The notes beneath the pieces are model-generated. The model searched no databases and was not told where the DNA came from. It was given only the letters and a program-made list of their open reading frames with translations. A DNA stretch of 64,000 nt. Origin: an uncultured Clostridia bacterium (GTDB taxonomy: Bacteria > Bacillota > Clostridia > Oscillospirales > Oscillospiraceae). Position numbers and translations under genes: made by a program. Shown piece by piece: positions 7,376 to 58,490 of the stretch. The first letter of the stretch is position 1; every line of letters starts with the position of its first letter. The stretch covers positions 1-64,000 of the forward strand of contig CAMCRV010000006.1 of NCBI GenBank assembly GCA_945877365.1, read 5' to 3'.

Positions 7376-7402
7376 GCCCCCGGATTTCCGGGGGCGTTTT
7401 TC
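7376..7402. terminator. Bidirectional intrinsic terminator
   Basis: GCCCCCGGATTTCCGGGGGC followed by T-run. Confidence 0.8.
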
Positions 7403-7790
7403 AGGCATTACCGGAGGTCTGATAGCCCTCGCAGGGGCCTTCCCGGTCGCAGTTTCTGGGGGAGAACTGTTCCTCGGGGAAGGGGATCCGGCTGAACAGC
7501 TCGCAGGGATCTTCGGAACAGCCGGGGCTGTCGCAGCACTCCTTGCAGGGGATGCTGTATTCCAGCACGGGAACCACCAGCTGGGCATCCCGTTCCAGCC
7601 GGATGATGGAGAACTGTCCCAGGGTGACAAACAGCCGGTGTTTGTCGCCGGAGAGCACCAGCTCCTCGTCGAACTGTCCCCGGATGGCTCCGGGAATCTG
7701 GCAGACGGTGTCGGAGCAGGAGCACTCGCACACCTCCCGCACCCGGGAGGAAAGCACCATGGGATCCAGCACCTCCACTGCCGGCACCAA
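7401..7790 (-). pseudogene. C-terminal half of a conserved clostridial protein, apparently interrupted by the 7772-15522 element
   Basis: VLDPMVLSSRVREVCECSCSDTVCQIPG...RLFVTLGQFSIIRLERDAQLVVPVLEYSIPCKECC...DPCELFSRIPFPEEQF; no ATG/GTG start, only TTG at 7790. Confidence 0.7.
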
Positions 7791-7833
7791 AGTGCCATGC
7801 CGGATCAGAAAAGCCGCGGCCTGAAAAAAACAG

Positions 7834-7896: not shown

Positions 7897-8277
7897 ATGA
7901 ATCTGAAAAGCGTCCATCACATTGCCATCATTGTTTCTGACCATGACAGGGCGTTGGACTTCTATGTGAACAAGCTGGGCTTTTCCGTGATTCGGGACTG
8001 CTTCCGGCAGGAGCGCAGCGACTGGAAGACGGATCTGGCTCTGGATGGACTGGAGCTGGAGCTTTTCTCCCAGTCCAATCCCCCCAAGCGCCCCAGCTAT
8101 CCCGAGGCCTGCGGCCTGCGGCATCTGGCCTTCCGGGTGGCAGATATTGAGGCTGCCGTGGCAGAGCTGGCGGAAAAGGGGATTGTATGTGAACCTATCC
8201 GCATGGATCCCTATACAAAGACGCGGATGACCTTTTTTTCAGACCCTGATGGTCTGCCGCTGGAGCTTCACGAATAA
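7897..8277 (+). CDS. VOC family protein (glyoxalase/lactoylglutathione lyase-like, YaeR/GloA2 type)
   Basis: HHIAIIVSDHDRALDFYVNKLGF...; RHLAFRVADIEAAVAEL; FFSDPDGLPLELHE. Confidence 0.88.
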   Translation: MNLKSVHHIAIIVSDHDRALDFYVNKLGFSVIRDCFRQERSDWKTDLALDGLELELFSQSNPPKRPSYPEACGLRHLAFRVADIEAAVAELAEKGIVCEPIRMDPYTKTRMTFFSDPDGLPLELHE

Positions 8278-8530: not shown

Positions 8531-9199
8531 ATGTATACAATTACCGATCTTTATGATCTTGACCACACCATTGCCGCAGATTATCTGCGCCAGTTCACCT
8601 ATCCCTGGGAGGCGCTGAAGGGTATCAAGGAGCTGATCCTGACCCTTGGCCCCAACCTGAATCCGGAGGAGTATGAGGAGCGGGAGCCCAATGTCTGGGT
8701 TCACAAAACCGCCAAGATTTTCCCCTCCGCCTATCTGGGCGCCCCCTGCATCATCGGCCCTAACACCGAGGTTCGCCACTGCGCCTTCATCCGGGGCAGT
8801 GCTCTGGTGGGTGCCGACTGCGTGGTGGGCAACTCCGTGGAGCTGAAAAATGTCATTCTCTTTGACCATGTTCAGACCCCCCATTACAACTATGTGGGCG
8901 ACTCTATTCTGGGCTACTACAGCCACATGGGCGCCGGTTCCATCACCTCCAATGTCAAGAGCGACAAGCAGCTGGTGGTGGTACATAACGGAGACGAGCA
9001 CATGGAAACCGGCATCAAGAAATTCGGCGCCATGCTGGGGGACTTCGTGGAAGTGGGCTGCAATGCCGTCTGCAATCCCGGAACGGTGATCGGCAGACAC
9101 AGCAATGTCTATCCCACCTCCTGCGTCCGGGGCGTCGTCCCGGCCAACAGCATCTGGAAGAACAATGGCACGATCGTCTGCAAGGCAGAAAAGGAGTAA
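8531..9199 (+). CDS. Left-handed beta-helix (hexapeptide repeat) nucleotidyltransferase/acetyltransferase-like protein, GlmU C-domain-like
   Basis: Hexapeptide repeats (VWVHKTAKIFPSAYLGAPCIIGPNTEVRHCAFIRGSALVGADCVVGNSVELKN...). Confidence 0.82.
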   Translation: MYTITDLYDLDHTIAADYLRQFTYPWEALKGIKELILTLGPNLNPEEYEEREPNVWVHKTAKIFPSAYLGAPCIIGPNTEVRHCAFIRGSALVGADCVVGNSVELKNVILFDHVQTPHYNYVGDSILGYYSHMGAGSITSNVKSDKQLVVVHNGDEHMETGIKKFGAMLGDFVEVGCNAVCNPGTVIGRHSNVYPTSCVRGVVPANSIWKNNGTIVCKAEKE

Positions 9200-9204
9200 T
9201 GCAT

Positions 9205-10551
9205 ATGGGCAAGTATTTTGGAACCGACGGCTTCCGGGGAGAGGCCAACAAGAATCTGACTTTTGAGCACGCTGTGAAAATCGGCCGTTTTCTGGGCTGG
9301 TACTACGGCGCGAGACTGGATAAAAAGGCAAAGGTGGTCATCGGCAAGGATACCAGAAGATCCTCCTATATGTTTGAGTACGCCCTGTGTACCGGCCTGA
9401 TGGCCAGCGGTGCAGATGCCTACATCATGCATGTCACCACCACCCCCTCCGTGGCCTACATCACCCGGGTGGATGACTTTGACTGCGGTATTATGATCTC
9501 CGCCTCCCACAACCCCTTCTACGACAACGGCATCAAGCTGCTCAACGGCAACGGCGAGAAGATGGATGAGGAGACCATCCTGAAGGTGGAGGAGTATATC
9601 GACGGTCTGGTGGAGATTCCCATTGCCCATCGGGACGGCATCGGCAGAACCGTGGACTATGTGGCCGGACGGAACCGCTATATCGGCTACCTGATCTCCA
9701 TGAGCAAGTACAGCTTCAAGAATGTGAAGGTGGGTCTGGATGTGGCCAACGGCGCCGCATGGCAGATCGCCAAGGGCGTGTTCGATGCCCTGGGCGCCAA
9801 GACCTATGTCATCAACGATGCCCCCAACGGCTACAACATCAACACCGACTGCGGCAGCACCCATGTGGAGCATCTGCAGAAGTTCGTGGTGGACAACGGC
9901 CTGGACATCGGCTTTGCCTATGACGGCGATGCCGACCGCTGCTTCTGCGTGGATGAAAAGGGCAATGTCATCACCGGCGACCACATCCTGTACATCTACG
10001 GCCTGTACATGAAGGAGCGTGGCAAGCTGATGAACAACAAGGTGGTCACCACGGTGATGAGTAACTTCGGCCTCTACAAGGCTCTGGACAAGGTGGGCAT
10101 CGAGTACGAAAAGACCAAGGTGGGCGACAAGTATGTCTATGAGAACATGGTCACCAACGGCCACCGCATCGGCGGCGAGCAGTCCGGCCATATCATCTTC
10201 ACCAAGTACGCCACCACCGGCGACGGTATCCTCACCTCCCTGAAGCTGATGGAGGTGATGCTGGCCAAGGAGAAGCCCATGAGCGAGCTGGCGGCTCCCG
10301 TGGTGTTCTATCCCCAGGTGCTGAAAAATGTCCGGGTCAAGTCCAAGCCCGAGGCACAGCAGGATCCCGATGTGCAGAAGGCCGTGGCAGATGTTGCCGA
10401 GGTTCTGGGAGACACCGGTCGGATTCTTGTCCGGGAATCCGGCACCGAGCCTGTGATCCGGGTCATGGTGGAGGCGGACACCGAGGAAATCTGCGAAAAA
10501 TATGTGGATCAGGTGATTTCTGTCATCGCGGCCAAGGGTCATCTGGCATAA
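9205..10551 (+). CDS. glmM: Phosphoglucosamine mutase
   Basis: MGKYFGTDGFRGEAN; SASHNPFYDNGIKLLN; DGDADRC; RESGTEPVIRVMVE. Confidence 0.92.
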   Translation: MGKYFGTDGFRGEANKNLTFEHAVKIGRFLGWYYGARLDKKAKVVIGKDTRRSSYMFEYALCTGLMASGADAYIMHVTTTPSVAYITRVDDFDCGIMISASHNPFYDNGIKLLNGNGEKMDEETILKVEEYIDGLVEIPIAHRDGIGRTVDYVAGRNRYIGYLISMSKYSFKNVKVGLDVANGAAWQIAKGVFDALGAKTYVINDAPNGYNINTDCGSTHVEHLQKFVVDNGLDIGFAYDGDADRCFCVDEKGNVITGDHILYIYGLYMKERGKLMNNKVVTTVMSNFGLYKALDKVGIEYEKTKVGDKYVYENMVTNGHRIGGEQSGHIIFTKYATTGDGILTSLKLMEVMLAKEKPMSELAAPVVFYPQVLKNVRVKSKPEAQQDPDVQKAVADVAEVLGDTGRILVRESGTEPVIRVMVEADTEEICEKYVDQVISVIAAKGHLA

Positions 10552-10590: not shown

Positions 10591-11082
10591 ATGTGTGGAA
10601 TTGTAGGCTTTACAGGCGCTCAGCAGGCAGCACCGATTCTGCTGGAGAGCCTTTCCAAGCTGGAATACCGGGGCATCGACTATGCGGTGGGTCTGGAGGG
10701 AAGCCTGAAGCTGAAGGAAATCAGCTACATCCACAGCGAGGCCTATGCCGCAGGGGAGCTGAAGCACGGCACCATCAGCCTCATCGAGGATGGAACGCTG
10801 GTGATTGGCATTCTGACCCAGAGCGAGCTGTATGAGAAAACCATCAGCAACATGGTGGAATGCAAGAGCCGCGGTGCGTATCTCATGGGTCTGACCACCT
10901 TTGGCAAATACGAGACGGAAGACCACGCGGATTTCACGGTGTATGTGCCTAAGGTGGATGAGCACTTTGTGGGCAGCCTTGCGGTGATCCCGCTGCAGCT
11001 GCTGGGCTACTATGTGAGCGTGGCAAAGGGACTGGATGTGGATAAGCCCCGGAATCTGGCCAAGAGTGTGACGGTGGAGTAA
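10591..11082 (+). pseudogene. glmS: Internally deleted glutamine--fructose-6-phosphate aminotransferase: N-terminal ~30 aa fused in-frame to the last ~130 aa
   Basis: MCGIVGFTGAQQAAPILLESLSKLEYRGID joined directly to YAVGLEGSLKLKEISYIHSEAYAAGELKHGTISLIEDGT...LAKSVTVE; 163 aa versus ~600 aa normally. Confidence 0.88.
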
Positions 11083-11360: not shown

Positions 11361-11539
11361 GTGGCGGCAGATGGCCGTGAAGCAGCATTGCCGAATCTGT
11401 GAGTTTCGGGATAGAAAATCGCATATTCCCGTCTTATCAGGAAATCCGTATGAGAAATTCCTTGCCAATTTGGAAAATGCGTTATAAAATAGGAATAGCT
11501 CTTTTGGATAATCCAGAAAACGCGTTAAGGAGGAACCAT

Positions 11540-12406
11540 ATGAAAGCAAAGGTTTATTTTTCCCGCACCATTACCCCGGAAAAGGTTCTGGAGCTGTACA
11601 GGCTGGTGGGGAAGGAGCTGCCCGGAAAAGTGGCAGTGAAGGTACATTCCGGAGAAAAGGGAAACCAGAATTTCCTCCGGCCGGACTTCTGGAAAAATAT
11701 CATCGAGTCTGTGGGCGGCACGGTGGTGGAGTGCAACACCGCCTATGACGGCGCCCGGAATACCACATCGAAGCATTTGAAACTTCTCGACGAGCACGGC
11801 TGGAACCGGTATTTCCCGGTTGACCTTCTGGATGCGGAAGGCCCGGATCTGGAGCTTCCGATCCCCAACGGCAAGGTGATCCGGAAAAACTATGTGGGCA
11901 AGGATATTGTCCATTACGACTCCATGCTGGTGCTGTCTCACTTCAAGGGACATCCCATGGGCGGCTACGGCGGAGCCCTGAAGCAGCTGTCCATCGGCGT
12001 AGGTTCTTCCTACGGAAAGGCCTACATCCACGGTGCAGGCGACCCAAAACAGATCTGGACGGCGGATCATGATTCCTTTCTGGAAGCCATGGCGGATGCG
12101 GCAGGCTCTGTGGTGGACTTTTTCCACGGCAATCTGGTGTACATCAATGTTATGAAGAACATGAGTGTGGACTGCGACTGCTGCGCCGTTGCGGAAGATC
12201 CCTGCATTGCAGATATCGGCATTCTGGCTTCCACCGATCCCATTGCCATCGATCAGGCCTGCATCGATCTGGTATATGCCTGCACCGATCCCGGCAAGCC
12301 CCATCTGCTGGAACGGATTGAAAGCCGAAACGGTGTCCATACCATTGAGGCTGCCGCCGCTCTGGGCTATGGAACCAGAGAGTATGAGCTGGTGGAAGTG
12401 GAATAA
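11540..12406 (+). CDS. DUF362 domain-containing protein
   Basis: MKAKVYFSRTITPEKVLELYRLVGKELPGKVAVKVHSGEKGNQNFLRP...; AGGAGG RBS. Confidence 0.82.
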   Translation: MKAKVYFSRTITPEKVLELYRLVGKELPGKVAVKVHSGEKGNQNFLRPDFWKNIIESVGGTVVECNTAYDGARNTTSKHLKLLDEHGWNRYFPVDLLDAEGPDLELPIPNGKVIRKNYVGKDIVHYDSMLVLSHFKGHPMGGYGGALKQLSIGVGSSYGKAYIHGAGDPKQIWTADHDSFLEAMADAAGSVVDFFHGNLVYINVMKNMSVDCDCCAVAEDPCIADIGILASTDPIAIDQACIDLVYACTDPGKPHLLERIESRNGVHTIEAAAALGYGTREYELVEVE

Positions 12407-12525: not shown

Positions 12526-13263
12526 CTACTTAACGGTCTTTTCGTGCCATTTCTGCTTGGCGGTGGCGGTAAACTGGTTGCGCAGGGTAATAGAGCCGTC
12601 GTCATTGAGGACAAACCAGAGCATATCGTTGTCCACAGGACGCAGATCACCGTTGGCCTGGATCTCCAGTACCTGCTTTGCAATGGCATAGGTGCTGTCG
12701 AAATAGGGGGTATTCTCATCGTAGCCCTGCCACTGGTTCGGCCGGGCAATTTCGTCCAGCAGGCTCTGGCCATAGCCGTTGGCCTGATCCTCAGAGCGGT
12801 TGATGGCTACCCACATAATGACGGTTTTTACATTGTCGGACCGTCCTGCACCTACGCTGTCAGCCAGCTTGGCAAGGGCCACAGCCTCCGGGATCAGTGC
12901 TTCCGGTATGGGAGTGGTTTCCTCCTCCGGCAGAGTTTCTGCGGCGATAACCTCCGGCGTGGTTTCCACAGGGGGTTCTGTCTTCTGCTTTCCGGGAAGA
13001 AGCGCCAGAATGAAAAGCAGGATGAGCAGCGGCGACCATAGCCGGATGTCATAATACCAGCGCACATCTTTTCCAAGGCTGCGCAGGAAGGCAAAAATGG
13101 GGTTTTGCTTTTGCGGCTTTCTTCTTCTGCGCTCAATTCTGGGTTCCGGTCTGGGCTCCGTCTTCGGTTCTGCCTCAAGTTCTGCTTGGGGCTGTGTCTG
13201 AGGCTCTGCCTGAGACTGTGCCTGGGGTTCGGTTCTGGATTCTTCGTTCAGTGTCGGATCCAT
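12526..13263 (-). CDS. Membrane protein with Q/P/E-rich N-terminal repeats, one TM helix, and an uncharacterised C-terminal domain
   Basis: QAQSQAEPQTQPQAELEAEPKTEPRPEPR low complexity, TM LWSPLLILLFILALL; weak SleB-like resemblance only. Confidence 0.6.
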   Translation of the reverse strand: MDPTLNEESRTEPQAQSQAEPQTQPQAELEAEPKTEPRPEPRIERRRRKPQKQNPIFAFLRSLGKDVRWYYDIRLWSPLLILLFILALLPGKQKTEPPVETTPEVIAAETLPEEETTPIPEALIPEAVALAKLADSVGAGRSDNVKTVIMWVAINRSEDQANGYGQSLLDEIARPNQWQGYDENTPYFDSTYAIAKQVLEIQANGDLRPVDNDMLWFVLNDDGSITLRNQFTATAKQKWHEKTVK

Positions 13264-13539
13264 AATATCATCTCCTTCTGTTTTCGCCGTGAGATTCTAA
13301 ATATCGGCGAGTTCCTCCGGGTTTCATAATAATATGATTCCGGTGAATAACGAGTCGAAATCTGTGAGGAAAAGAAAAACTTCCTCTTCGGGAAATAGAA
13401 TAACATATTACAGCAAAAAAGTCAAATTTTATTCGTTTTTCAGACATAACTGAAACTTTTTATGAAATTATGTAAACAAAAGAATCTCCCAAAGCCTTTT
13501 TGAGACAGCCATCCGCGCAGTTCTGAAAGAGATAAATTG

Positions 13540-13790
13540 TCATTTGTGGGGATGCCCCCACGGGCAATGCGAGCCTTCGCCCGGGTGATGATCTTTCCAT
13601 CCTTTGGGCACGCCCGGTTCGTTTTTGCGGTGGTGGTCTATTCTATATAACCTACGCAGTTCCGGTCGAGGGGCCCAAAGGATGTGGATTGTCTACCTGC
13701 AGTTCGTAACGAATTGTCAGCGGCGACTCGCCGCCAAATTCCAGTTTATCAACCGGCTGCGCAAAGCCGATAAGCAGATAAGATTTTAAT
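13540..13790. repeat. Structured intergenic repeat sharing its end with the repeat at 32755
   Basis: CGCCAAATTCCAGTTTATCAACCGGCTGCGCAAAGCCGATAAGCAGATAAGA is near the reverse complement of 32752-32800; internal inverted repeat CATCCTTTGGGC/GCCCAAAGGATG. Confidence 0.65.
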
Positions 13791-13798
13791 CGACAGTA

Positions 13799-15307
13799 TT
13801 ACTTTGCAGGATTCTGCAGCTTTTTTAGAACAATCCCAACCACCCCGTTTTTGTTCACGCGGATATGATCCACAATCCGGCGAAGCTCGGTGTTGGTCAC
13901 AGTCTCCAGATCCAGAAACCGCCGGATCTCCTGGGTGTATGCATCAGAAATGAACTGTCCATTGCATTTCAGCCGATGGGGCTGTTTCCGGCGTGCCAAT
14001 TCGATATCCAGTCCGGCAAGCTGCTTTTCGATTGCCTGAACCTTTTCCTTCAGTGCGTCCAGAGAAATCAGGTCATTGGCATACATCTCCCGAAATCTGT
14101 CTCGCCGGCGGATCAGATGGGTGCGCTGCTGTTCCAGCATCTGCCGGCCTGACGCAGAGGCATCCCCCTGAGGAAGGGAGGCTTCCAGATAGGACAGAAT
14201 CCCGGCGACAAAGGCATCCGGATCCCGTATCTGGGAGAAAAGATAGGTTCTCAGCTGTTCCAGCAGCTCCGGCTCATCCAGAGAAACGGTGTTATCGCAC
14301 CGTTGGGCGGTATAGTGGTCGTTGGTGGCGCAGTGCCAGTAGACCCGGGTGTTGGCGTAAGTATAGGTTTTCCGGCAAAAGGATCTGCCGCAGTGCTCAC
14401 ACTTGATGAGGGTGGAAAACAGGTGCTTGCCGCTGTATCTTCCCTGACGGAAGGGCTCCCCGGAGTCGTATTGGACACGCCGGGATTCCAGGATTTCCTG
14501 AGTCCGCCGAAAAACTGCCGCACTTACAATGGCCCAGGAGGGACGCTCATGAAAAAAATGCTCATCTTCCGGCAGGCTGACCTGTTTTCCGGTGAGATAA
14601 TCCTGGATTTCATACTTATGGTTAATCAGAACGCCGCTGTAGATGGGGTTTGTGAGAACCCGCCGGACAGCCCGGGCATTCCAGTCGCTTCCCAGTTTGG
14701 TCTTGGCCTGCTCCCGATTCAGAGTCAGGCTGATGCTGCGGCACCCCAGCCCCTGTTCTGTATACAGGTAAAAGATCCTGCGAACAATCCGGGCCTCCTC
14801 CGGATTGATGGACAGGGTAAAATTGTCAATCCGGTCATAGCCGAAGATCCTCTGGGGAACCCGCCCCTTTTCCGCATTGATCCGTTTTCCGAACTTGGTT
14901 CGCTTGGAAATATTGGCGGATTCTTCCTGCGCCATGGCACCAAAGATGGTCAGCACAAATTCGCTGTCCCCCAGGGAATCCATGTTGGCATTGAGGAAGA
15001 GAACGGTTATGCCCAGGGCTTTGAGCTGACGGATGCTCACCAGAAAATCCACGGTGTTCCGGGCCAGACGGCTGATATCCTTGACGACTACCATGGAGAA
15101 CAGATTTTTCTGGGCATCGTGCATCATGCGGTTGAATGCATCCCGATTTTTCAGGGATGTTCCGGAAATGCCCTCATCGGCGTACAGCCGAACCAGGTCA
15201 TAGCCGTTGCGGCTGGCGTAGGCAGTAAAAAAAGCCTTCTGGTTTTCCAGACTGTCCAGCTGTTCTTCTTTGCTGGTACTTACCCGGCAGTAGGCGGCAA
15301 TTTTCAT
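13799..15307 (-). CDS. Large serine recombinase (resolvase N-domain + recombinase domain + zinc beta-ribbon + coiled coil)
   Basis: AAYCRVSTSKEEQLDSLENQ (catalytic Ser), DISRLARN, IFGYDRI, CEHCGRSFCRK...WHCATN; full length 502 aa. Confidence 0.95.
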   Translation of the reverse strand: MKIAAYCRVSTSKEEQLDSLENQKAFFTAYASRNGYDLVRLYADEGISGTSLKNRDAFNRMMHDAQKNLFSMVVVKDISRLARNTVDFLVSIRQLKALGITVLFLNANMDSLGDSEFVLTIFGAMAQEESANISKRTKFGKRINAEKGRVPQRIFGYDRIDNFTLSINPEEARIVRRIFYLYTEQGLGCRSISLTLNREQAKTKLGSDWNARAVRRVLTNPIYSGVLINHKYEIQDYLTGKQVSLPEDEHFFHERPSWAIVSAAVFRRTQEILESRRVQYDSGEPFRQGRYSGKHLFSTLIKCEHCGRSFCRKTYTYANTRVYWHCATNDHYTAQRCDNTVSLDEPELLEQLRTYLFSQIRDPDAFVAGILSYLEASLPQGDASASGRQMLEQQRTHLIRRRDRFREMYANDLISLDALKEKVQAIEKQLAGLDIELARRKQPHRLKCNGQFISDAYTQEIRRFLDLETVTNTELRRIVDHIRVNKNGVVGIVLKKLQNPAK

Positions 15308-15411
15308 GTATCTGCCCTCAGCAGCTTCTCCAGCAGAATAGCCTTCAGCGCCGCCTCAACAGCCTGAGGGAGATTGGGGTTTTCAAAGGTATAGGTAACG
15401 GGTTTTGACAC
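15304..15411 (-). CDS. Small leader ORF (35 aa), translationally coupled to the serine recombinase
   Basis: GTG start with AAAGGAGG upstream: MSKPVTYTFENPNLPQAVEAALKAILLEKLLRADT*, stop overlaps recombinase ATG (ATGA). Confidence 0.65.
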   Translation of the reverse strand: MSKPVTYTFENPNLPQAVEAALKAILLEKLLRADT

Positions 15412-15498
15412 AGGTCAAACCTCCTTTCACTTGCCAGTTTATGGCCCGGGAGGGCGATCATGACACGGCTGGCGAGCGTTTCCGGCAACAGAACATAT

Positions 15499-15975
15499 CT
15501 ATTTGGTGCGATCAGCCTCCACCACTGCCGTGGGCAGGTTAGCGTGGAGGGTGGTCATCCCGTCGCTCTGGCCAAGCCGGGTGTCGCTGCGGAAGATATG
15601 CGCCTTGCTCTCCTCGCCGCACAGGACGGCCCGCTTGGAGAAAACGGCCAGTCCATAGAGTGTGGCAGGGCGGACGCTTCCCACAACCGCATCCGCCAGA
15701 ATCCGGTAGTAGAAGGTTACATCGATGCAGTAGTGATTCCGGTCGAAAGCCACAGGCTCCACTTCAATATTGGTGTAGATCAGCTCAGCGCAGCGAACCC
15801 GGGCGTTGGCCGCATTATCCAGCAGTGCCTGAGATCCGGTGGTTAAGTATACCCGCAGATCCTCCACACAGTCCTTATCCCGGCAGGAATCTGTGATTTT
15901 TCGGGTGTCGATGGACATGGCCTGCCGCAGGTCGCTGGGATTGCACCGCATGGCAGGCGTGGTCTGTTCGGACAT
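15499..15975 (-). pseudogene. N-terminal half of the conserved clostridial protein interrupted by the element; stop codon supplied by the element end
   Basis: SIDTRKITDSCRDKDCVEDLRVYLTTGSQALLDNA...ELIYTNIEVEPVAFDRNHYCIDVTFYYRI...LPTAVVE then ADRTK*; AGGAGG RBS before ATG. Confidence 0.72.
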
Positions 15976-16113
15976 GAAACTACCTCCTATAGGAAAGTAT
16001 AAGCGTTTTTTCGCCTATAGGACAGTTTATGCACCGACCCGGAGGAGGTGCAGGACTATAAAAAGCAACTGCCCAAACCTTCCTCTGCCCTTCACAGATG
16101 AACAAAGCAAACA

Positions 16114-31061: not shown

Positions 31062-31694
31062 TTGGACGAATATCTGGTTCCCACCCGGTTTGGGGAGGAT
31101 GAATTTTACGAAAAGAAGTCCCACTTCATCGGCCGGGTCTGGCCGGTGGAAAGTGAGGAAGAGGCTCTGGAAAAGATCCAGCAGATGAAGAAGCAGCATT
31201 ACGATGCTACACACAACTGCTGGGCGTACATTATCCGGGACGGTGCGGTGCGGTTCTCCGACGACGGAGAACCCGGCGGCACTGCCGGAATGCCCATGCT
31301 GCAGGTGCTGCAGCGGGAGGGGCTGTATAACATCGTCTGCGTGGTCACCCGGTATTTCGGCGGTATCCTTCTGGGAGCCGGGGGACTGGTGCGTGCCTAT
31401 ACAAAGGGTGCGAAAATTGCGGTGGATGCCGCAGGCAAATCCATGAAACGGGTGTGGACGGTGCTGTATGTGCCCTGCCCCTACCCATTTTACGAGCGTG
31501 TGAAGCTGGAGGTTGCCTCCTTCGGGGGGATTATCCGCCAGTGCGATTTCGGGGCGGAGGTGGAGCTGGAGCTGCTCTTCCCGGAGCAGCAGGCGCAGCC
31601 CTTTCTGGATCGCCTGACGGACATGACCTCCGGCACGGTGGAGGGCATGGAAACCGGGCAGGAATACCGTGCCTTTCCCGTTGACAATCCATAA
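31062..31694 (+). CDS. YigZ/IMPACT family protein
   Basis: KKSHFIGRVWPV; DATHNCWAYI; FSDDGEPGGTAGMPML; VVTRYFGGILLGAGGLVRAYTKG. Confidence 0.93.
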   Translation: MDEYLVPTRFGEDEFYEKKSHFIGRVWPVESEEEALEKIQQMKKQHYDATHNCWAYIIRDGAVRFSDDGEPGGTAGMPMLQVLQREGLYNIVCVVTRYFGGILLGAGGLVRAYTKGAKIAVDAAGKSMKRVWTVLYVPCPYPFYERVKLEVASFGGIIRQCDFGAEVELELLFPEQQAQPFLDRLTDMTSGTVEGMETGQEYRAFPVDNP

Positions 31695-31719
31695 ATCTAC
31701 ATAGTTGGGGGGAAACACC

Positions 31720-32733
31720 ATGACCGTTCGGGAAGAATTGGAACGCGAGGAGCATAAGCGTCTGAATCCGCTGGCGGCCTTTGCCGACCGGAGTGCCGGT
31801 CGTCTGCATCCGGAACCGGAGCGGACGGAGGATGTCCGCACCTGCTATCAACGGGATACGGATCGCATCATCCACAGCAAATCCTTCCGCCGCCTGATGC
31901 ATAAAACCCAGGTGTTTCTCCAGCCGGAGGGAGACCACTACCGCACCCGGCTGACCCATACCCTGGAGGTTTCCCGAATCGCCGGAACCATAACCCGGGC
32001 TCTGGGGCTGAACGAAGATCTGGCGGAGGCCATCGCCATGGGTCACGATCTGGGACATACGCCCTTCGGCCACGCCGGAGAGGCAGCTCTGAGCCAGTGC
32101 TGGGGAAAGCCCTTCCGGCACAACGAGCAGAGCCTCCGGGTGGTGGATTATCTGGAACGGGATGGGCAGGGTTTGAACCTGACCCATGAGGTTCGGGATG
32201 GGATTCTCTGCCACACCGGGGAGAACTGGGCAAAGACGCTGGAGGGGCAGATTGTCCGCCGCTCCGACCAGATTGCCTATGTGAACCACGATATCGACGA
32301 TGCCATTCGGGCAGGCATTCTTACCAATGAGGATATCCCCAAGTCCATTTCCGATGTTCTGGGGCATACCCATTCCGCCCGAATCAACGCGCTGGTGACG
32401 GATGTGATCCGCACCTCCCGGGAGGCAGGGGCCATCTGCCTGACCCCTCAGGTGGAAAAGGCATTGAAGGATCTGCGCGCGTTCATGTTTGAGCGGGTCT
32501 ACCGGAATCCCGTGGCAAAGGGGCAGGAGAGCAAGGCAAAGGCCATGCTGGCGCAGCTGTTTGAATACTATGTCACCCACCCGGAGGCGCTGCCGGAGGA
32601 CTTCCTGCCCCAGCTGACCTTCGACGGCATGGAGCGTACCGTCTGCGACTACATCGCCGGTATGACCGACAACTATGCCGTGGACAAGTATACGGAGATT
32701 TTCATTCCCTCCGGCTGGCAGGTCAAGGGGTAG
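31720..32733 (+). CDS. dgt: Deoxyguanosinetriphosphate triphosphohydrolase-like protein
   Basis: RTCYQRDTDRIIHSKSFRRLMHKTQVF; TRLTHTLEVS; MGHDLGHTPFGHAGE. Confidence 0.94.
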   Translation: MTVREELEREEHKRLNPLAAFADRSAGRLHPEPERTEDVRTCYQRDTDRIIHSKSFRRLMHKTQVFLQPEGDHYRTRLTHTLEVSRIAGTITRALGLNEDLAEAIAMGHDLGHTPFGHAGEAALSQCWGKPFRHNEQSLRVVDYLERDGQGLNLTHEVRDGILCHTGENWAKTLEGQIVRRSDQIAYVNHDIDDAIRAGILTNEDIPKSISDVLGHTHSARINALVTDVIRTSREAGAICLTPQVEKALKDLRAFMFERVYRNPVAKGQESKAKAMLAQLFEYYVTHPEALPEDFLPQLTFDGMERTVCDYIAGMTDNYAVDKYTEIFIPSGWQVKG

Positions 32734-32754
32734 GCAGGAAAAAAGATTCTTTTA

Positions 32755-32972
32755 TCTGCTTATCGGCTTTGCGCAGACGCTTGATAAATTGGAATTTGGC
32801 GGGTTCAAAGGCCCCCTTGTGTAAAGGGGGCTGTCAGCGAAGCTGACTGGGGGATTGACAACCCCTCCGGCAAAAATCAATAGATTTTTGCCACCTCCCC
32901 TTACACAGGGGAGGCTTTGGGCACCCCCGCAAATTCCAATTTGCCGGTTTGCTGACTGAAACCGATAGGCAC
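32755..32972. mobile_element. MITE-like intergenic repeat with imperfect ~45-bp terminal inverted repeats
   Basis: Left AAATTGGAATTTGGCGGG versus right (rc) AAATTGGAATTTGCGGG; internal CCCCCTTGTGTAAAGGGGG and related hairpins. Confidence 0.75.
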
Positions 32973-33001
32973 AAACGATTTACGGGAAAGGAGGGGATAC
33001 T

Positions 33002-34753
33002 ATGGCGTTTCCCCCGGCATTTTTGGATGAACTGGTGGCGAGAAACCCCATCGAAGATGTGGTGGGGCAGTATGTCACCCTGCGCCGCAGCGGCAGCAAC
33101 CTGTTCGGCCTGTGTCCCTTCCACGGTGAGAAAACCGCCTCCTTTTCCGTGGCCCCCGACAAGGGAATTTTCTATTGCTTCGGCTGCCATAAGGGGGGCA
33201 GTGTCATCAATTTCCAGATGGAGATTGAGGGGATGAGCTATCCCGATGCCGTCCGGGCGCTGGCGAAGCGAGCCGGAATGGAGGTTCCGGGGGATGAACA
33301 GTATCAGAGCCGGTATCACCAGCAGGAGCGGCTCTGGGCGCTGCACAAGGAGGCTGCCCGGTTCTTCCACAGTCAGCTGTACGCGCCCGTGGGAGAGCAG
33401 GCATTGAAGTATGCCATGGATCGTGGGATGCCCAAATCCATTCTGACCAAGTTCGGCATTGGTTACGCCCCGGACAGCTGGGATGCTCTGGTGAAGGCCA
33501 TGCGGCAGAAGGGGTACACGGACGAGGAGCTGCAGCAGTCCGGACTGGTGACGGTCTCCCGGAAGAACGGCAATCTGTTTGACCGGTTCCGGGATCGGCT
33601 GATGTTCCCGATTATTGATGTCCGTGGCTATGTCATCGGCTTCGGCGGCCGGATTATGAAGAAGGATGACAGTGCTGCCAAGTACCTGAACTCCCCGGAA
33701 ACCCTGATTTTTAACAAGAGAAAGAACCTGTTTGCCCTGAATTTCGCGAAGAAAAGCAAGCTGGGCTATCTGATTCTGGTGGAGGGCTACATGGATGCCA
33801 TCGCCCTGCACCAATACGGCTTTGACTGCGCTGTGGCATCCCTGGGCACCGCCCTGACGGAGGACGGCGCGGCATTGCTGAGCCGGTATACCGATCAGGT
33901 GGTGCTGATTTACGACAGCGACACCGCCGGACAGAACGCCACCAAACGGGCCATTCCCATTCTGGAAAAGGCAGGCCTTCAGGTGAAGGTGCTTCAGGTT
34001 CGGGATGCCAAGGATCCGGATGAATACCTCAAGAAGTTCGGCGCGGATAAATTCAAAAATCTGCTGGAGGAATCCGCCAACCGGGTGGAGTATCAGCTGA
34101 ATGCCATCCGAAAGAAATATGACATCCGGGAGGATGACCAGAAGGTCAAATATTTACAGGAGTGCGCAGAGCTGATTGCCACCCTTCCCAGCGCTGTCCG
34201 CCGGGAGGTGTACGGCGGCCGGGTGGCGGAGGATGCCAAAATCAGCATGGATGCCATGCAGATGGAGATTTCCCGAGCCTATAAGCGAAGAACGCAGCGG
34301 GAAAAGAAGCAGCAGGAGAAGCAGAGCCTTGCCCCTGCCCGGAACCACCAGCCCCACAGCAGAAGCATCCGATATGACAATGTGAAGTCCGCCATGGCAG
34401 AGGAGCAGCTGCTGGGGCAGCTTTTCCGGGAACCGGTATTGCTGGATCAGATTCCGGAACTGAAGCCTGACCAGTTTTCTGTGCCCCTGTTCGGAAGGGT
34501 CTTTGAACAGCTGACCCGCCGGTTCCGGGAGGGAATGGAAATCTCTCTGGGGGGACTGACGGATGTGACCTCTGAGGAGATGTCCCATCTTGCAGGAATC
34601 CTCCACAGCCAGACCGGCCCCATCAGCGAACAGGCGCTGAAGGACTGTGTCAGAACCATCCAATCGGAGTATGAGGCCGGGCAGGTGGTTTCGGAAAACG
34701 ATCTGCTGGCTGTACAGAAACGAATGAAAGAAAGAAAAGGAATGAAAGCATGA
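33002..34753 (+). CDS. dnaG: DNA primase
   Basis: CHC2 zinc finger CPFHGEKTASFSVAPDKGIFYCFGCHKGG; Toprim EGYMDAI. Confidence 0.96.
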   Translation: MAFPPAFLDELVARNPIEDVVGQYVTLRRSGSNLFGLCPFHGEKTASFSVAPDKGIFYCFGCHKGGSVINFQMEIEGMSYPDAVRALAKRAGMEVPGDEQYQSRYHQQERLWALHKEAARFFHSQLYAPVGEQALKYAMDRGMPKSILTKFGIGYAPDSWDALVKAMRQKGYTDEELQQSGLVTVSRKNGNLFDRFRDRLMFPIIDVRGYVIGFGGRIMKKDDSAAKYLNSPETLIFNKRKNLFALNFAKKSKLGYLILVEGYMDAIALHQYGFDCAVASLGTALTEDGAALLSRYTDQVVLIYDSDTAGQNATKRAIPILEKAGLQVKVLQVRDAKDPDEYLKKFGADKFKNLLEESANRVEYQLNAIRKKYDIREDDQKVKYLQECAELIATLPSAVRREVYGGRVAEDAKISMDAMQMEISRAYKRRTQREKKQQEKQSLAPARNHQPHSRSIRYDNVKSAMAEEQLLGQLFREPVLLDQIPELKPDQFSVPLFGRVFEQLTRRFREGMEISLGGLTDVTSEEMSHLAGILHSQTGPISEQALKDCVRTIQSEYEAGQVVSENDLLAVQKRMKERKGMKA

Positions 34754-54249: not shown

Positions 54250-54891
54250 ATGAACATTGCAGACCGGATTCAGAATTTACGAAAGCTCCGGGGAATCTCT
54301 CAGGAGCAGCTGGCAGACCGGCTGGGGGTGTCCCGGCAGACCATTTCCAAGTGGGAGAGTGAGCAGTCCGCCCCGGATATGGAAAAGATTATTCTCCTCA
54401 GCGACTACTTTGAAGTCACCACGGACTATCTTCTGAAGGGAATTGAAAAGCAGGAGGAGGGCTCCCCAAAACCGGATGCCAGAATCTTCTCCCTGACGGG
54501 AACCACCCTGGGCTTTCTGGGCATTGTGATTTCCGTGGCCATCTGGATGGAGCGAAAAACCGTGGCGGCAGTGGCAATCGGATTGATTCTGACCGCCATG
54601 AGCGTGATGATTCATCAGATCGGTCAGATCCTGGGCGGTTCCAACGCCGCCCAGGCTCGCAAACAGTACTGGCTTCTGGCGCCCTGGTATCTGGTGCTGA
54701 TTCCCTATTCCTGCGTAATCAATTTTGCGCAGGCTATTGTGCAGGGCTTCTTTCCACTGATCGCACCGATTCCCGAACTGACCAATTCGCTGATTGCCTT
54801 TGCGGCAGGCTGGCTGGGCTATTTTCTCATCTGCCTGCTGACGGATGCTTTCCTGGTGACGAAAAACAAAATAGTACACTTTTTGGAGTGA
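54250..54891 (+). CDS. XRE-family HTH regulator with C-terminal membrane domain
   Basis: NIADRIQNLRKLRGISQEQLADRLGVSRQTISKWESEQSAPDMEKIILLSDYFEVTTDYLL plus TM helices. Confidence 0.92.
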   Translation: MNIADRIQNLRKLRGISQEQLADRLGVSRQTISKWESEQSAPDMEKIILLSDYFEVTTDYLLKGIEKQEEGSPKPDARIFSLTGTTLGFLGIVISVAIWMERKTVAAVAIGLILTAMSVMIHQIGQILGGSNAAQARKQYWLLAPWYLVLIPYSCVINFAQAIVQGFFPLIAPIPELTNSLIAFAAGWLGYFLICLLTDAFLVTKNKIVHFLE

Positions 54892-54897
54892 TACATA

Positions 54898-56622
54898 ATG
54901 ACATTTTTAAAAATAGGGATGTTTGGACTATCTACCTTGGGGTCATTTCAGCTTATTCGTGGAATAACGAAGGATAAGATTGATCTTTTTTTCTTACCAA
55001 GTTTGACGATTGCTATTCAGGTAACGATTCTATTTTTTGCTGGAATCTTAAATCTTTTACCAGAAGTATCAGGGCTGATATATCTCGTAGGATTGATTGC
55101 ATTAATAATGAGTTTGTGGAAGAGCAAAGGTCTAAATTTTGTGAAAGATTATGTTAATGATGGCTATATCATATCCGTTTTAATAATGATTATTATGGGA
55201 ATGAGCGTTAGAGGAAAACTGTTTTGGCATTATGATAATTTTTCACACTGGGCAATGGTTGTACGCCATATGCTGGAAGTGAACCATTATCCAAACTTTG
55301 AAAGCGTTCTCATTTCTTTTCAAGAGTATCCTCTTGGAAGTGCAACATATATATACTATTTTGCAAAAATGATTGGCAACGGTGAATCAATACAAATGTT
55401 GGCACAAATTTATATGATTGTTGCAGCTGTTTTACCGTTATTTTCATTTGTAAATAAAAGAAGCTTTAAGATTGACTTTGTATTTCTTACTTTCGTTAAC
55501 TTTGTGTTTGTATACAATATCCATGCAGGGGATTTGTTAGTAGATACACTATTGCCTGTGGTAGGCATATGTGGATTGTTATTTGCAAAAAAGCATTGCG
55601 TTCATAATAGTTGTAAATTAAATTTTTGGCTATTGTCATGCTATTTGGTACAGATTATCCAGATAAAGAATTCGGGTGTCTTTTTTGTTGTGGCAATATT
55701 AATTGTATGCAGCAAGTATTATTGGAACAAACAGAGTAGATTTAATAATCTGGGTTCTGCAGCCCTTCCTTTTTTGTCATTAGCGATATGGCAAAAGCAT
55801 TGTAAGTATGTTTTTGCTTCAGCTACTACCTCTAAACATGCAATGACAGTTGAAAATTATCGATTGGTCATGGGGGATAAAACTTTAGAAGATATAAAAA
55901 CAATCTGCAAAGAGATGTTCCGATTATCTATAACATCTAAGGATGTGGTAGCACTATTAGGAATTGTGTTATTGATTGGATGTTGCGTATTGTTCTTTAA
56001 GAAGAGTGATTGGAAAGATTATAAGAGTTGTTTTCTTTTTACATTGATTTTTTATGTATGTTATCAAATTGGCATGCTTGGAATGTATCTATTTTCCATG
56101 CCAGGTGGAGAGGCAACAAGTCTTGCCGGAAGTGGAAGATATTTAAAAACAATTTTAATAGCTATCTTAATGATATATATGGCGTTTGCAATAAAGTCGT
56201 TTTCAGATGTCATTGTAAATGGAAAAATCAAAGCCTTGTCTGCGGGAATTTTGATAATTTGTATTTTTTCTTTTTTGTATATCTCACAGGGGAAAATATA
56301 TTTTGCCCCTACCACCGTACACAATGGCGAGAAACGCATGTGGATAGAGAATAAAAGAGAAATATATGCATTACCTATGTATGATTCATACTGTATGCTC
56401 ATTCCAAGTAACGATTCCGGATATTCATATTATTTGCTCAAATATATATTCCAAAGTAATGATGTATCGTCAAAAATTGTTGATAGTATTGATGATTTGA
56501 ATAGTGTTTCATCCAAATATATTTTAGTTTATGACAAAGAAAATGAAATTATTAATACATGGATAAGAGAGATGTATCCAGAGCAAGAGGGAAATGATGT
56601 AATAATACGAGAGGATATGTAA
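54898..56622 (+). CDS. Low-GC polytopic membrane protein (surface-glycan type polymerase/transferase-like)
   Basis: 574 aa with ~12 hydrophobic segments; base composition strikingly A/T-rich compared with flanks. Confidence 0.65.
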   Translation: MTFLKIGMFGLSTLGSFQLIRGITKDKIDLFFLPSLTIAIQVTILFFAGILNLLPEVSGLIYLVGLIALIMSLWKSKGLNFVKDYVNDGYIISVLIMIIMGMSVRGKLFWHYDNFSHWAMVVRHMLEVNHYPNFESVLISFQEYPLGSATYIYYFAKMIGNGESIQMLAQIYMIVAAVLPLFSFVNKRSFKIDFVFLTFVNFVFVYNIHAGDLLVDTLLPVVGICGLLFAKKHCVHNSCKLNFWLLSCYLVQIIQIKNSGVFFVVAILIVCSKYYWNKQSRFNNLGSAALPFLSLAIWQKHCKYVFASATTSKHAMTVENYRLVMGDKTLEDIKTICKEMFRLSITSKDVVALLGIVLLIGCCVLFFKKSDWKDYKSCFLFTLIFYVCYQIGMLGMYLFSMPGGEATSLAGSGRYLKTILIAILMIYMAFAIKSFSDVIVNGKIKALSAGILIICIFSFLYISQGKIYFAPTTVHNGEKRMWIENKREIYALPMYDSYCMLIPSNDSGYSYYLLKYIFQSNDVSSKIVDSIDDLNSVSSKYILVYDKENEIINTWIREMYPEQEGNDVIIREDM

Positions 56623-56737
56623 ATGAGTAAAATAGCAATAGTAATACTTTTCGATGGCTTTGCTTTCCTTTCACGCTTACGACCTGCCTGCTGATGGATT
56701 TCTTCCTGCTGTCCAGAAACAAAGCATAATAAAATTC

Positions 56738-56775
56738 CGCCGGATTCGCTGGAATCCGGCGGAGATTTTTTCAAC
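56738..56775. terminator. Intrinsic terminator
   Basis: AAATTCCGCCGGATTCGCTGGAATCCGGCGGAGATTTTTTC. Confidence 0.75.
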
Positions 56776-58490
56776 TAGGTGGGATTGTAGTTGACAATGA
56801 TGTCGTGTTCTGTCAGAGCGGAAACGCTTTCGATGCTGTTGCCGTACACATTGACCTGCACCAGCAGATAGCAGCTTGCCAGAGCATCCACATTGGTGAT
56901 CTGGTTGTAGTCCATGTAGACATAGGCAATCTGGCTCAGCTTGTTCAGATTGTCAATGCTGGTAAGGGTGTTGTGGGAACCGTCGATGTTTCGCAGAGCG
57001 CAGCCATCCTGCCAGTCCGGCAGCTGGGAGACAGTGTTGTAGGAGAAATCCAGCACATTCAGCTTGATCAGGGCAGACAGACTGGAGATGTCGGAAACCT
57101 GATTGTTGTTGAAGCGAAGTTCTGTCAGCTCTGCACACTGGGCGGCAGGGGAGATGTCCGTCAGGACATTGTGATTGACAGCCAGATAGGACAGCAGAGG
57201 CAGTTTATTCACACCATCAAGGCTGGTAATCTGATTGTTGCTGGCATCCAGCCATTCCAGCCGCTGGCAGGAGGAAACTGGCTCCAGAGAAGTCAGAGCG
57301 TTGTAGGAGACATCCAGCTTTTCCAGATTGTTGAGGCCGGACAGCTGGCTCAGATCCGTTACGGCGTTGTGCTGCAGATTCAGCTCCCGCAGGGTAGTGA
57401 TGCCGCTGAGGGCTTCCAGATTCCGCACCGTGTTGTTGCTGAGATCCAGAGAGGTGAGGCTGGGGGCACCTGCCAGGGCGGCGATGGAGCTGAGACTGCA
57501 ATCGTCCAGACTCAGGCTGGTGAGTACCGGCAGCTGGGCAACGGTGGACAGGGAATCGGCGGGCAGAATGCATCCCAGAAGCTCCAGGCTCTGGAGTTTA
57601 TTCAGATCGGACAGACATTCCAGATCCGACAGCTTCTGATTGGTGACTGTCAGAACCTGCAGATAGGGCATCAGTGCCAGATCCTCCAGATTGGTGGCAG
57701 CCTCCGGCACGGAGAATTCCGTGATATCCCACAGGGAGTTGGTGTAGATAATCTCGCCGCTGCTGGCGTTGATGGCAGAGCGCATGGCCTCCTCCATAGC
57801 CTTGTCCTTGAATTCCACAGCCTCAATGACACCGCCGATGGTGTAGGTGCCGATGGTCAGGGGGCTGATCAGACCATTGTCGCCGACGCTGATGGCGTAG
57901 ACGGTGGTCTCACCGGCGGGCAGGGAGACGGGCTGGGAGTAGGGCTCGTTGGCAATGGAGGGGTAATCACCGTCCGTGGTGTAGTACAGGGTTCCGGTGG
58001 AGGAGCTCAGCTCCAGATCCAGATACTGGGAATAGAAGCCGGGCTCATAGTTGGCGGTGGGGGCAGTGGGGCGGAGCTGATCCAGAGCATTTCGGATGGT
58101 GGGGTCGGAGATGTTGGACAGGAAGTTGACGGCGTCCAGCAGCTTGTCCTGCTCCACATAGGTCTTGCACAGGGCAGCGTAAAGGTCAACGCCGCCGCCG
58201 CTTTTGATGGCGTTGGACAGAGTAACCTCGGCCTTGGTGTAGTTGCCGGCATTCTTGTACTGGTTTGCCAGCTCGATGGCCACATTTTCGTCCCGGCCGG
58301 AGTATTCGTAGGCCATGTTGTAGAACATGGCGGACAGGCGGGAATTGCCGTACATATCCTGATAGCGGGCCTGGCTCAGCAGGAAGTCCCGGGTGAAGTC
58401 CCGGTCGTAAACAAACAGGTACCAGCCAATACTGGCAATAATCACCAGAATCATCAGCAAAGGCACCAGAAACCTCATGAATTTTTTCAT
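56775..58490 (-). CDS. Membrane-anchored leucine-rich-repeat protein with TPR-like and chitobiase-C-like (CHB_HEX) regions
   Basis: Repeated LxxLxxLxxLxxLxLxxN; SSSTGTLYYTTDGDYPSIANEPYSQPVSLPAGETTVYAISV; N-terminal TM. Confidence 0.88.
   Translation of the reverse strand: MKKFMRFLVPLLMILVIIASIGWYLFVYDRDFTRDFLLSQARYQDMYGNSRLSAMFYNMAYEYSGRDENVAIELANQYKNAGNYTKAEVTLSNAIKSGGGVDLYAALCKTYVEQDKLLDAVNFLSNISDPTIRNALDQLRPTAPTANYEPGFYSQYLDLELSSSTGTLYYTTDGDYPSIANEPYSQPVSLPAGETTVYAISVGDNGLISPLTIGTYTIGGVIEAVEFKDKAMEEAMRSAINASSGEIIYTNSLWDITEFSVPEAATNLEDLALMPYLQVLTVTNQKLSDLECLSDLNKLQSLELLGCILPADSLSTVAQLPVLTSLSLDDCSLSSIAALAGAPSLTSLDLSNNTVRNLEALSGITTLRELNLQHNAVTDLSQLSGLNNLEKLDVSYNALTSLEPVSSCQRLEWLDASNNQITSLDGVNKLPLLSYLAVNHNVLTDISPAAQCAELTELRFNNNQVSDISSLSALIKLNVLDFSYNTVSQLPDWQDGCALRNIDGSHNTLTSIDNLNKLSQIAYVYMDYNQITNVDALASCYLLVQVNVYGNSIESVSALTEHDIIVNYNPT

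Follow-up and report, generated by a model that had tools for sequence, protein, structure and literature searches.

What does a protein of only 35 residues do when it is encoded directly ahead of a large serine recombinase (LSR), and what does the recombinase do for its host? The question is raised by a stretch of 64,000 nucleotides (contig CAMCRV010000006.1 of assembly GCA_945877365.1, hereafter the window) from an uncultured Clostridia bacterium of the Oscillospiraceae. The preliminary description of this locus considered three roles for the small product, which might act as a directionality factor, act as a translational regulator, or be no more than a leader.

The recombinase gene and the small protein ahead of it

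The LSR gene is located on the reverse strand at 13799–15307 and encodes 502 aa. The reading frame and its Pfam matches (Resolvase, 1.7e-35; Recombinase, 3.6e-17; Zn_ribbon_recom, 1.1e-9) confirm the intact recombinase first described, with RVS at residues 8–10, the recombinase domain, and the Zn ribbon. The small ORF lies on the same strand at 15304–15411. It starts with the GTG at 15411, which is preceded at a distance of 8 nt by a strong ribosome-binding site (AGGAGG, 15420–15425), and ends with a TGA at 15304 that overlaps the LSR ATG as an exact ATGA, again as first described. We will use the term "leader" for this 35-aa candidate recombination directionality factor (RDF). An att site had also been placed at the 3′ end of the LSR. 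Such a site is indeed close by, with its core 106 bp from the leader start, but it is found on the 5′ side of the leader-LSR pair. The 3′ end of the LSR faces a repeat of ~250 bp (13531–13784) that stops 15 bp from the stop codon and has ~40 copies in the genome, most of them 90–97% identical. This repeat was considered as an att site and rejected because its ~40 copies are dispersed. In a draft contig, it could hide sequence; nevertheless, both halves of the interrupted gene described below are in their ancestral flanks. No Rfam family was found in the region.

A tblastn search with the leader found a homologue upstream of the LSR in 23 of the 24 relatives read (at least 44% identity). Since leader homologues precede nearly all close LSR homologues, the pairing is beyond chance, and the earlier caveat that the peptide might lack conservation in relatives does not hold. 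The aligned leaders share the motif Y-x-F-x-[ND]-P-N and, after it, a helix whose last residues are EKL; outside this motif they are poorly conserved. AlphaFold predicts 14 extended residues and then a 20-residue helix for the leader alone (mean pLDDT 85); no family for it was found in Pfam or NCBIfam.

The ATGA overlap is present in 6 of the 24 leader-LSR pairs (the window, L016, L022, L111, L112, and L114), and the remaining pairs have gaps of 13–228 nt. Because the spacing varies and the amino-acid motif is kept, it is the product that is conserved, not the coupling. A coupled leader or translational attenuator would have a fixed position and an unimportant product; here the spacing runs from −4 to +228 nt around a conserved motif. 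In relatives with a gap of ~100 nt, the leader is often followed by a terminator-like hairpin plus T-tract, and an extended −10 element (TGnTAnnAT) lies ahead of the LSR in 10 of 15 cases, compared with 0.70 expected. With the hairpin and a separate LSR promoter between them, leader and LSR are therefore separate units in such relatives. The predicted promoters suggest that in most relatives the LSR is a vegetative (sigma-A-type) unit and the leader a mother-cell-type unit. In the window, neither the intervening terminator nor the LSR promoter is left, and the two genes form a single overlapping operon that lies shortly after the 5′ half of the interrupted gene.

Two further features of such gaps and leaders were observed. 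In L007–L017, a second inverted repeat, GTTGGTTG...CAACCAAC, is found in the leader-LSR gap, with the LSR ribosome-binding site in its loop. Other small ORFs, of 55–75 aa, often precede more distant LSRs of the same group (29–39% identity; L031–L053).

By inspection of the ORF lists, leader and LSR are the only genes common to elements whose listed cargo otherwise differs. The leader thus has one of the properties expected of an RDF, being a small protein of the same element that is conserved with its cognate LSR. Since GirX (42 aa) gives a precedent, we regard RDF of the LSR as the most likely role of the leader.

The interrupted gene, its att sites, and the cargo

Beyond the element end, a 158-aa ORF on the reverse strand (15499–15975) is the N-terminal half of a gene of ~275 aa, which we call the target. 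It runs for 153 codons to a GTGGAG core, followed by five element codons and a TAG, and the target frame is broken after PTAVVE. The C-terminal half (123 codons, 7401–7772, reverse strand) is next to mreB, as in intact relatives. With the missing part in the stretch 7401–7790 beside mreB, the element splits the target, an interruption that the preliminary description does not mention. The element comprises 7,744 bp between two GTGGAG cores and separates target codons 153 and 154; a crossover at the core yields an uninterrupted frame of 276 codons with no stop. In two genomes with an intact target (G018 and G013), the flanks are as in the window, with recD2-mreB on one side and o761 on the other, and G013 also keeps the epimerase gene. 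Therefore, the region at 7.78–15.52 kb is a clean insertion. The target is present in 60 of the 61 genomes of the genus, intact in most of them and split in about 6. No family for it was found in Pfam or NCBIfam, and the fold predicted for the C-terminal half alone is of low confidence (pLDDT 44). The possibility that the target is homologous to C. difficile CotA was considered and dropped, as one paper limits CotA to Clostridioides/Paeniclostridium.

The attL site (15494–15522, reverse strand) has its core at 15517–15522 and an element arm with CACCAAATAG, which contains the TAG stop of the N-terminal half; this stop is often inside the element arm. The attR site (7773–7805, reverse strand) has its core at 7773–7778 and an element arm with TTTGGTGCC. 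The two sites have in common the core, with GA at its centre, and their arms are inverted. The element arms are inverted repeats with one centre of symmetry in 17 of 17 genomes, with 13.4 of 18 positions matching compared with 8.0 in shuffles (shuffled maximum 9.2); the arms of G065, GGACACCAAATAGGCAGG / CCTGCCTATTTGGTGTCC, are an example. Two arm subtypes, CACCAAATAGG and TCCCTTAATAGG, have been identified, and both sides change together. An uncut attP is found on viral contig L217, directly after an LSR of 58% identity with a leader upstream; it has 15/15 inverted arms and a 14-nt spacer.

The cargo of the window element does not include phage genes. On the forward strand, it encodes a glyoxalase/YaeR-family protein (7897–8277), a hexapeptide acyltransferase-like protein (8531–9199), the phosphoglucosamine mutase GlmM (9199–10551), a SIS-domain protein that resembles the C-terminal part of GlmS (10591–11082), and a DUF362 protein (11399–12406); a 245-aa protein of no family is encoded on the reverse strand (12526–13263). 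The 97%-complete draft has no other close copy of GlmM. Most genus relatives checked have a single close GlmM, on a different contig from the target, and a close match is absent in 2 of 10, which leaves the essentiality of the GlmM cargo uncertain. Elsewhere in the window, an island of low G+C content (54250–56800; 0.35 vs. 0.56) encodes a 574-aa protein with no confident family assignment as well as an HTH regulator, and has probably been acquired.

Recurrence, selection, and predicted promoters

LSR relatives (54–66% identity) are found beside or between the halves of the same target gene in Flavonifractor, Pseudoflavonifractor, Lawsonibacter, Oscillibacter, and unnamed genera. The other half is elsewhere in the same genomes, 12–32 kb apart where both are on one contig; the G081 element is about 5.6 kb, and shorter ones of 1.8–3.8 kb also occur. 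In the 17 genomes in which both halves were read, the gene is broken at the same codon and the halves join in frame, without stops, at the short common core GTGGAG. A split host gene that joins in this way, together with a serine recombinase, is among the features of sporulation gene-intervening elements. The joined target is 271–281 aa in most of the 17 genomes and longer in G095; in G020 and G025, contig ends truncate it. The leader-LSR pair takes four arrangements of position and direction relative to the target halves, but leader and LSR remain together. The LSRs of the window genus form one clade (support 99/96) that broadly resembles the target-gene tree, although most species of the genus are without the element.

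Some copies of the element are themselves altered. The LSR reading frame is broken in G185 (L192) and appears broken in G227 (L193); both elements are in the same target, which should therefore be non-rejoinable there. In G096 (L187/L188), a nested insertion of ~21.8 kb with a second serine recombinase interrupts the LSR at residue ~43, the two LSR parts being at 9664–9899 and 31657–33003 of the joined region, and this is an intervening element inside an intervening element. The 20-kb element in the target of G092 (L185) carries apparent type IV pilus genes (PilB/PilT/PilC/pilin-like ORFs).

A gene fragment severed from its promoter would be expected to decay if the gene were never rebuilt. 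In pairs of genomes in which the target is split in both, the dN/dS of the C-terminal half is 0.03 (G020/G081), 0.13, 0.15, 0.17, 0.23, 0.24, 0.28, and 0.28, i.e. 0.03–0.28 in 8 of the 10 pairs; two distant pairs have values of 0.55 and 0.73. The split gene is thus still under selection.

A sister LSR clade (44–47% identity; G044, G049, G052, G098, and G101) has homologous leaders and interrupts a gene of sporulation, spoIIID. The break in SpoIIID falls between SKSTVH and KD. Its C-terminal part comes directly after the LSR where the flank is readable, and the N-terminal part is ~6.7 kb (G044), 19.5 kb (G049), or 52.5 kb (G098) away; the loci of these leader-LSR elements are L022, L028, L029, L030, and L197–L205. 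An uncut attP for the spoIIID site is present on a 62-kb viral contig (L219). In the openly accessible literature, we found no published elements in spoIIID or in the target gene.

The promoters predicted for the target and the leader point to the mother cell. The target is preceded by GCAC-N16-CATAAACTG (16023–16051, reverse strand), predicted to be of the sigma-K type. Among the target genes examined, almost every one has a CATAnnnT box ~45–90 nt ahead of its start, usually with GCAC ~16 nt upstream of the box in the window genus, and GCAC-N15..18-CATANNNTG has one match in the window against 0.26 expected. From the Bacillus/Clostridium consensus, we take GCAC with a CATA-type −10 to be a sigma-K signature. 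The leader is preceded by GTCATGAT-N13-CATAAACT (15436–15464, reverse strand), a predicted sigma-E-like promoter whose resemblance to sigma-E sites we assume from the sigma consensus of Bacillus/Clostridium. The motif [CA]ATANACT is present within 60 nt upstream of 15 of the 24 leaders (0.19 expected from shuffles) and of 0 of 37 window genes.

The window genome encodes SpoIVA and an intact SpoIIID. Across 197 genomes of the order, the presence of the target is associated with that of SpoIVA (156/29/5/7; Fisher p = 0.0016, kinship ignored); in the 5 genomes with the target in which SpoIVA was not detected, its absence may in some cases be an assembly gap. Based on the promoter type, the co-occurrence with SpoIVA, and the analogy with the spoIIID clade, the target is probably a late mother-cell sporulation gene.

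Proposed function and known systems

We consider it likely that the LSR together with the 35-aa protein forms the recombination module of a sporulation gene-intervening element in a probable late mother-cell gene. Gut bacteria probably have a little-known family of such developmental gene switches, to which this element would belong. During sporulation, the sigma-E-type promoter would drive the leader-LSR pair in the mother cell, and the leader would bind the LSR as an RDF and switch on recombination between attL and attR. Excision would take place from the mother-cell chromosome only, after which the rebuilt target would be transcribed from the sigma-K-type promoter that belongs to it. In the forespore and the vegetative lineage, the element and its cargo would be retained.

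The locus could also be read as a decayed prophage, or as an integrative element of the usual kind, that happens to use a conserved gene as attB, in which case the gene is inactivated, developmental excision does not occur, and the leader is a phage RDF for induction only. The related LSRs on viral contigs with intact attP, the LSR broken in G185 and probably in G227, and the sporadic occurrence of the element, with about 6 split genomes among the 61 of the genus, are all in keeping with this reading. Nevertheless, we judge it unlikely, since a C-terminal half severed from its promoter and start is under purifying selection (dN/dS 0.03, G020/G081), target and leader have mother-cell-type predicted promoters, the sister clade targets spoIIID, and the window element holds the only GlmM of the draft and not phage genes.

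The small protein itself may be read differently. That it binds the LSR as an inhibitor or stabiliser, silencing it or favouring integration, is slightly less probable again: the protein does travel with the LSR wherever the pair sits in the element, and its predicted, mainly helical structure could bind a coiled coil, but a mother-cell-type promoter would act at the time when excision is needed, and in skinCd and SPbeta, taken as analogues, the small protein under regulation is the RDF (PMC5025042, PMC4191935). Less credible still is a mere leader that sets LSR translation through ATGA coupling and whose product is irrelevant. The perfect overlap and strong ribosome-binding site of the window, and the overlap in L016, L022, L111, L112, and L114, suggest such a role; the amino-acid motif, however, is conserved at leader-LSR distances of 13–228 nt, and several of those gaps contain a terminator-like hairpin and a separate promoter. 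Of the three roles first considered, RDF is therefore the best supported, and both coupling and "only a leader" are weakened by the restriction of ATGA to 6 of 24 pairs and by the hairpin and/or LSR promoter in the ~100-nt gaps.

The ancestral, phage-like state of the pair would have had separate units, the LSR with a vegetative promoter and the leader with a mother-cell promoter, and in the window and some relatives the two would have been fused into one overlapping operon. Such a fusion under one promoter would give an excision-only module. We give about even chances to the broader proposal that a phage-derived leader-LSR lineage in Oscillospirales, specialised to split mother-cell sporulation genes (the target and spoIIID), repeatedly merged two genes with promoters of their own into a single overlapping RDF-recombinase operon under a mother-cell promoter, a domesticated excision-only switch that can carry ordinary genes of the host, for example glmM or a type IV pilus locus.

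In spore formers, DNA excision as part of development has been described for a handful of Bacillus and Clostridium genes. The present elements would add two further split targets, an uncharacterised, widely conserved gene and spoIIID, in mostly uncultured gut bacteria from several genera. They come with an LSR family to match and with a candidate RDF of about 35–50 residues encoded directly upstream of the LSR. These LSR/RDF/att sets are directly testable. They also point to a spore function for a conserved unannotated gene and suggest a route by which a phage excision system may be domesticated into one operon.

The yin element in yabG of Clostridium botulinum, which is prophage-like and known from a single strain (PMC10747680), also lies in a sporulation gene with its LSR downstream of the 5′ half in a similar orientation; it differs from the window element in its gene and in being confined to that strain. 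In the skin element of Clostridioides difficile, the LSR CD1231 is under sigma-A control and the 72-aa RDF CD1234 is under the control of sigma-E and SpoIIID (PMC5025042). The SPbeta prophage of Bacillus subtilis rebuilds the spore-surface gene spsM by means of SprA and the 58-aa RDF SprB, which has a mother-cell promoter (PMC4191935; PDB 9dxd). The predicted vegetative LSR unit and mother-cell leader unit of most relatives would follow the same logic, as this is the published arrangement of both CD1231/CD1234 and SprA/SprB (PMC5025042, PMC4191935). On the other hand, skin interrupts sigK and its RDF and LSR genes are apart. SPbeta shares with the present system an LSR with a small (here candidate) RDF and, in the relatives, phage-like contigs, but it is an active prophage, whereas phage genes are absent from the window element, and the two LSRs are only distant relatives (E-values of about 5e-8 to 7e-8 with 9dxd/9dxh). 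The gin element in gerE of Bacillus cereus ATCC10987 has three LSR genes and uses the LSR GirC with the 42-aa RDF GirX (PMC5595907). Like the window element, it combines non-phage cargo, an LSR, a tiny RDF-sized protein, and a target, here of probable sporulation type, whose halves join in frame at a short core; the window element differs in its target gene and host group, and in having the small ORF directly upstream of the LSR and overlapping it.
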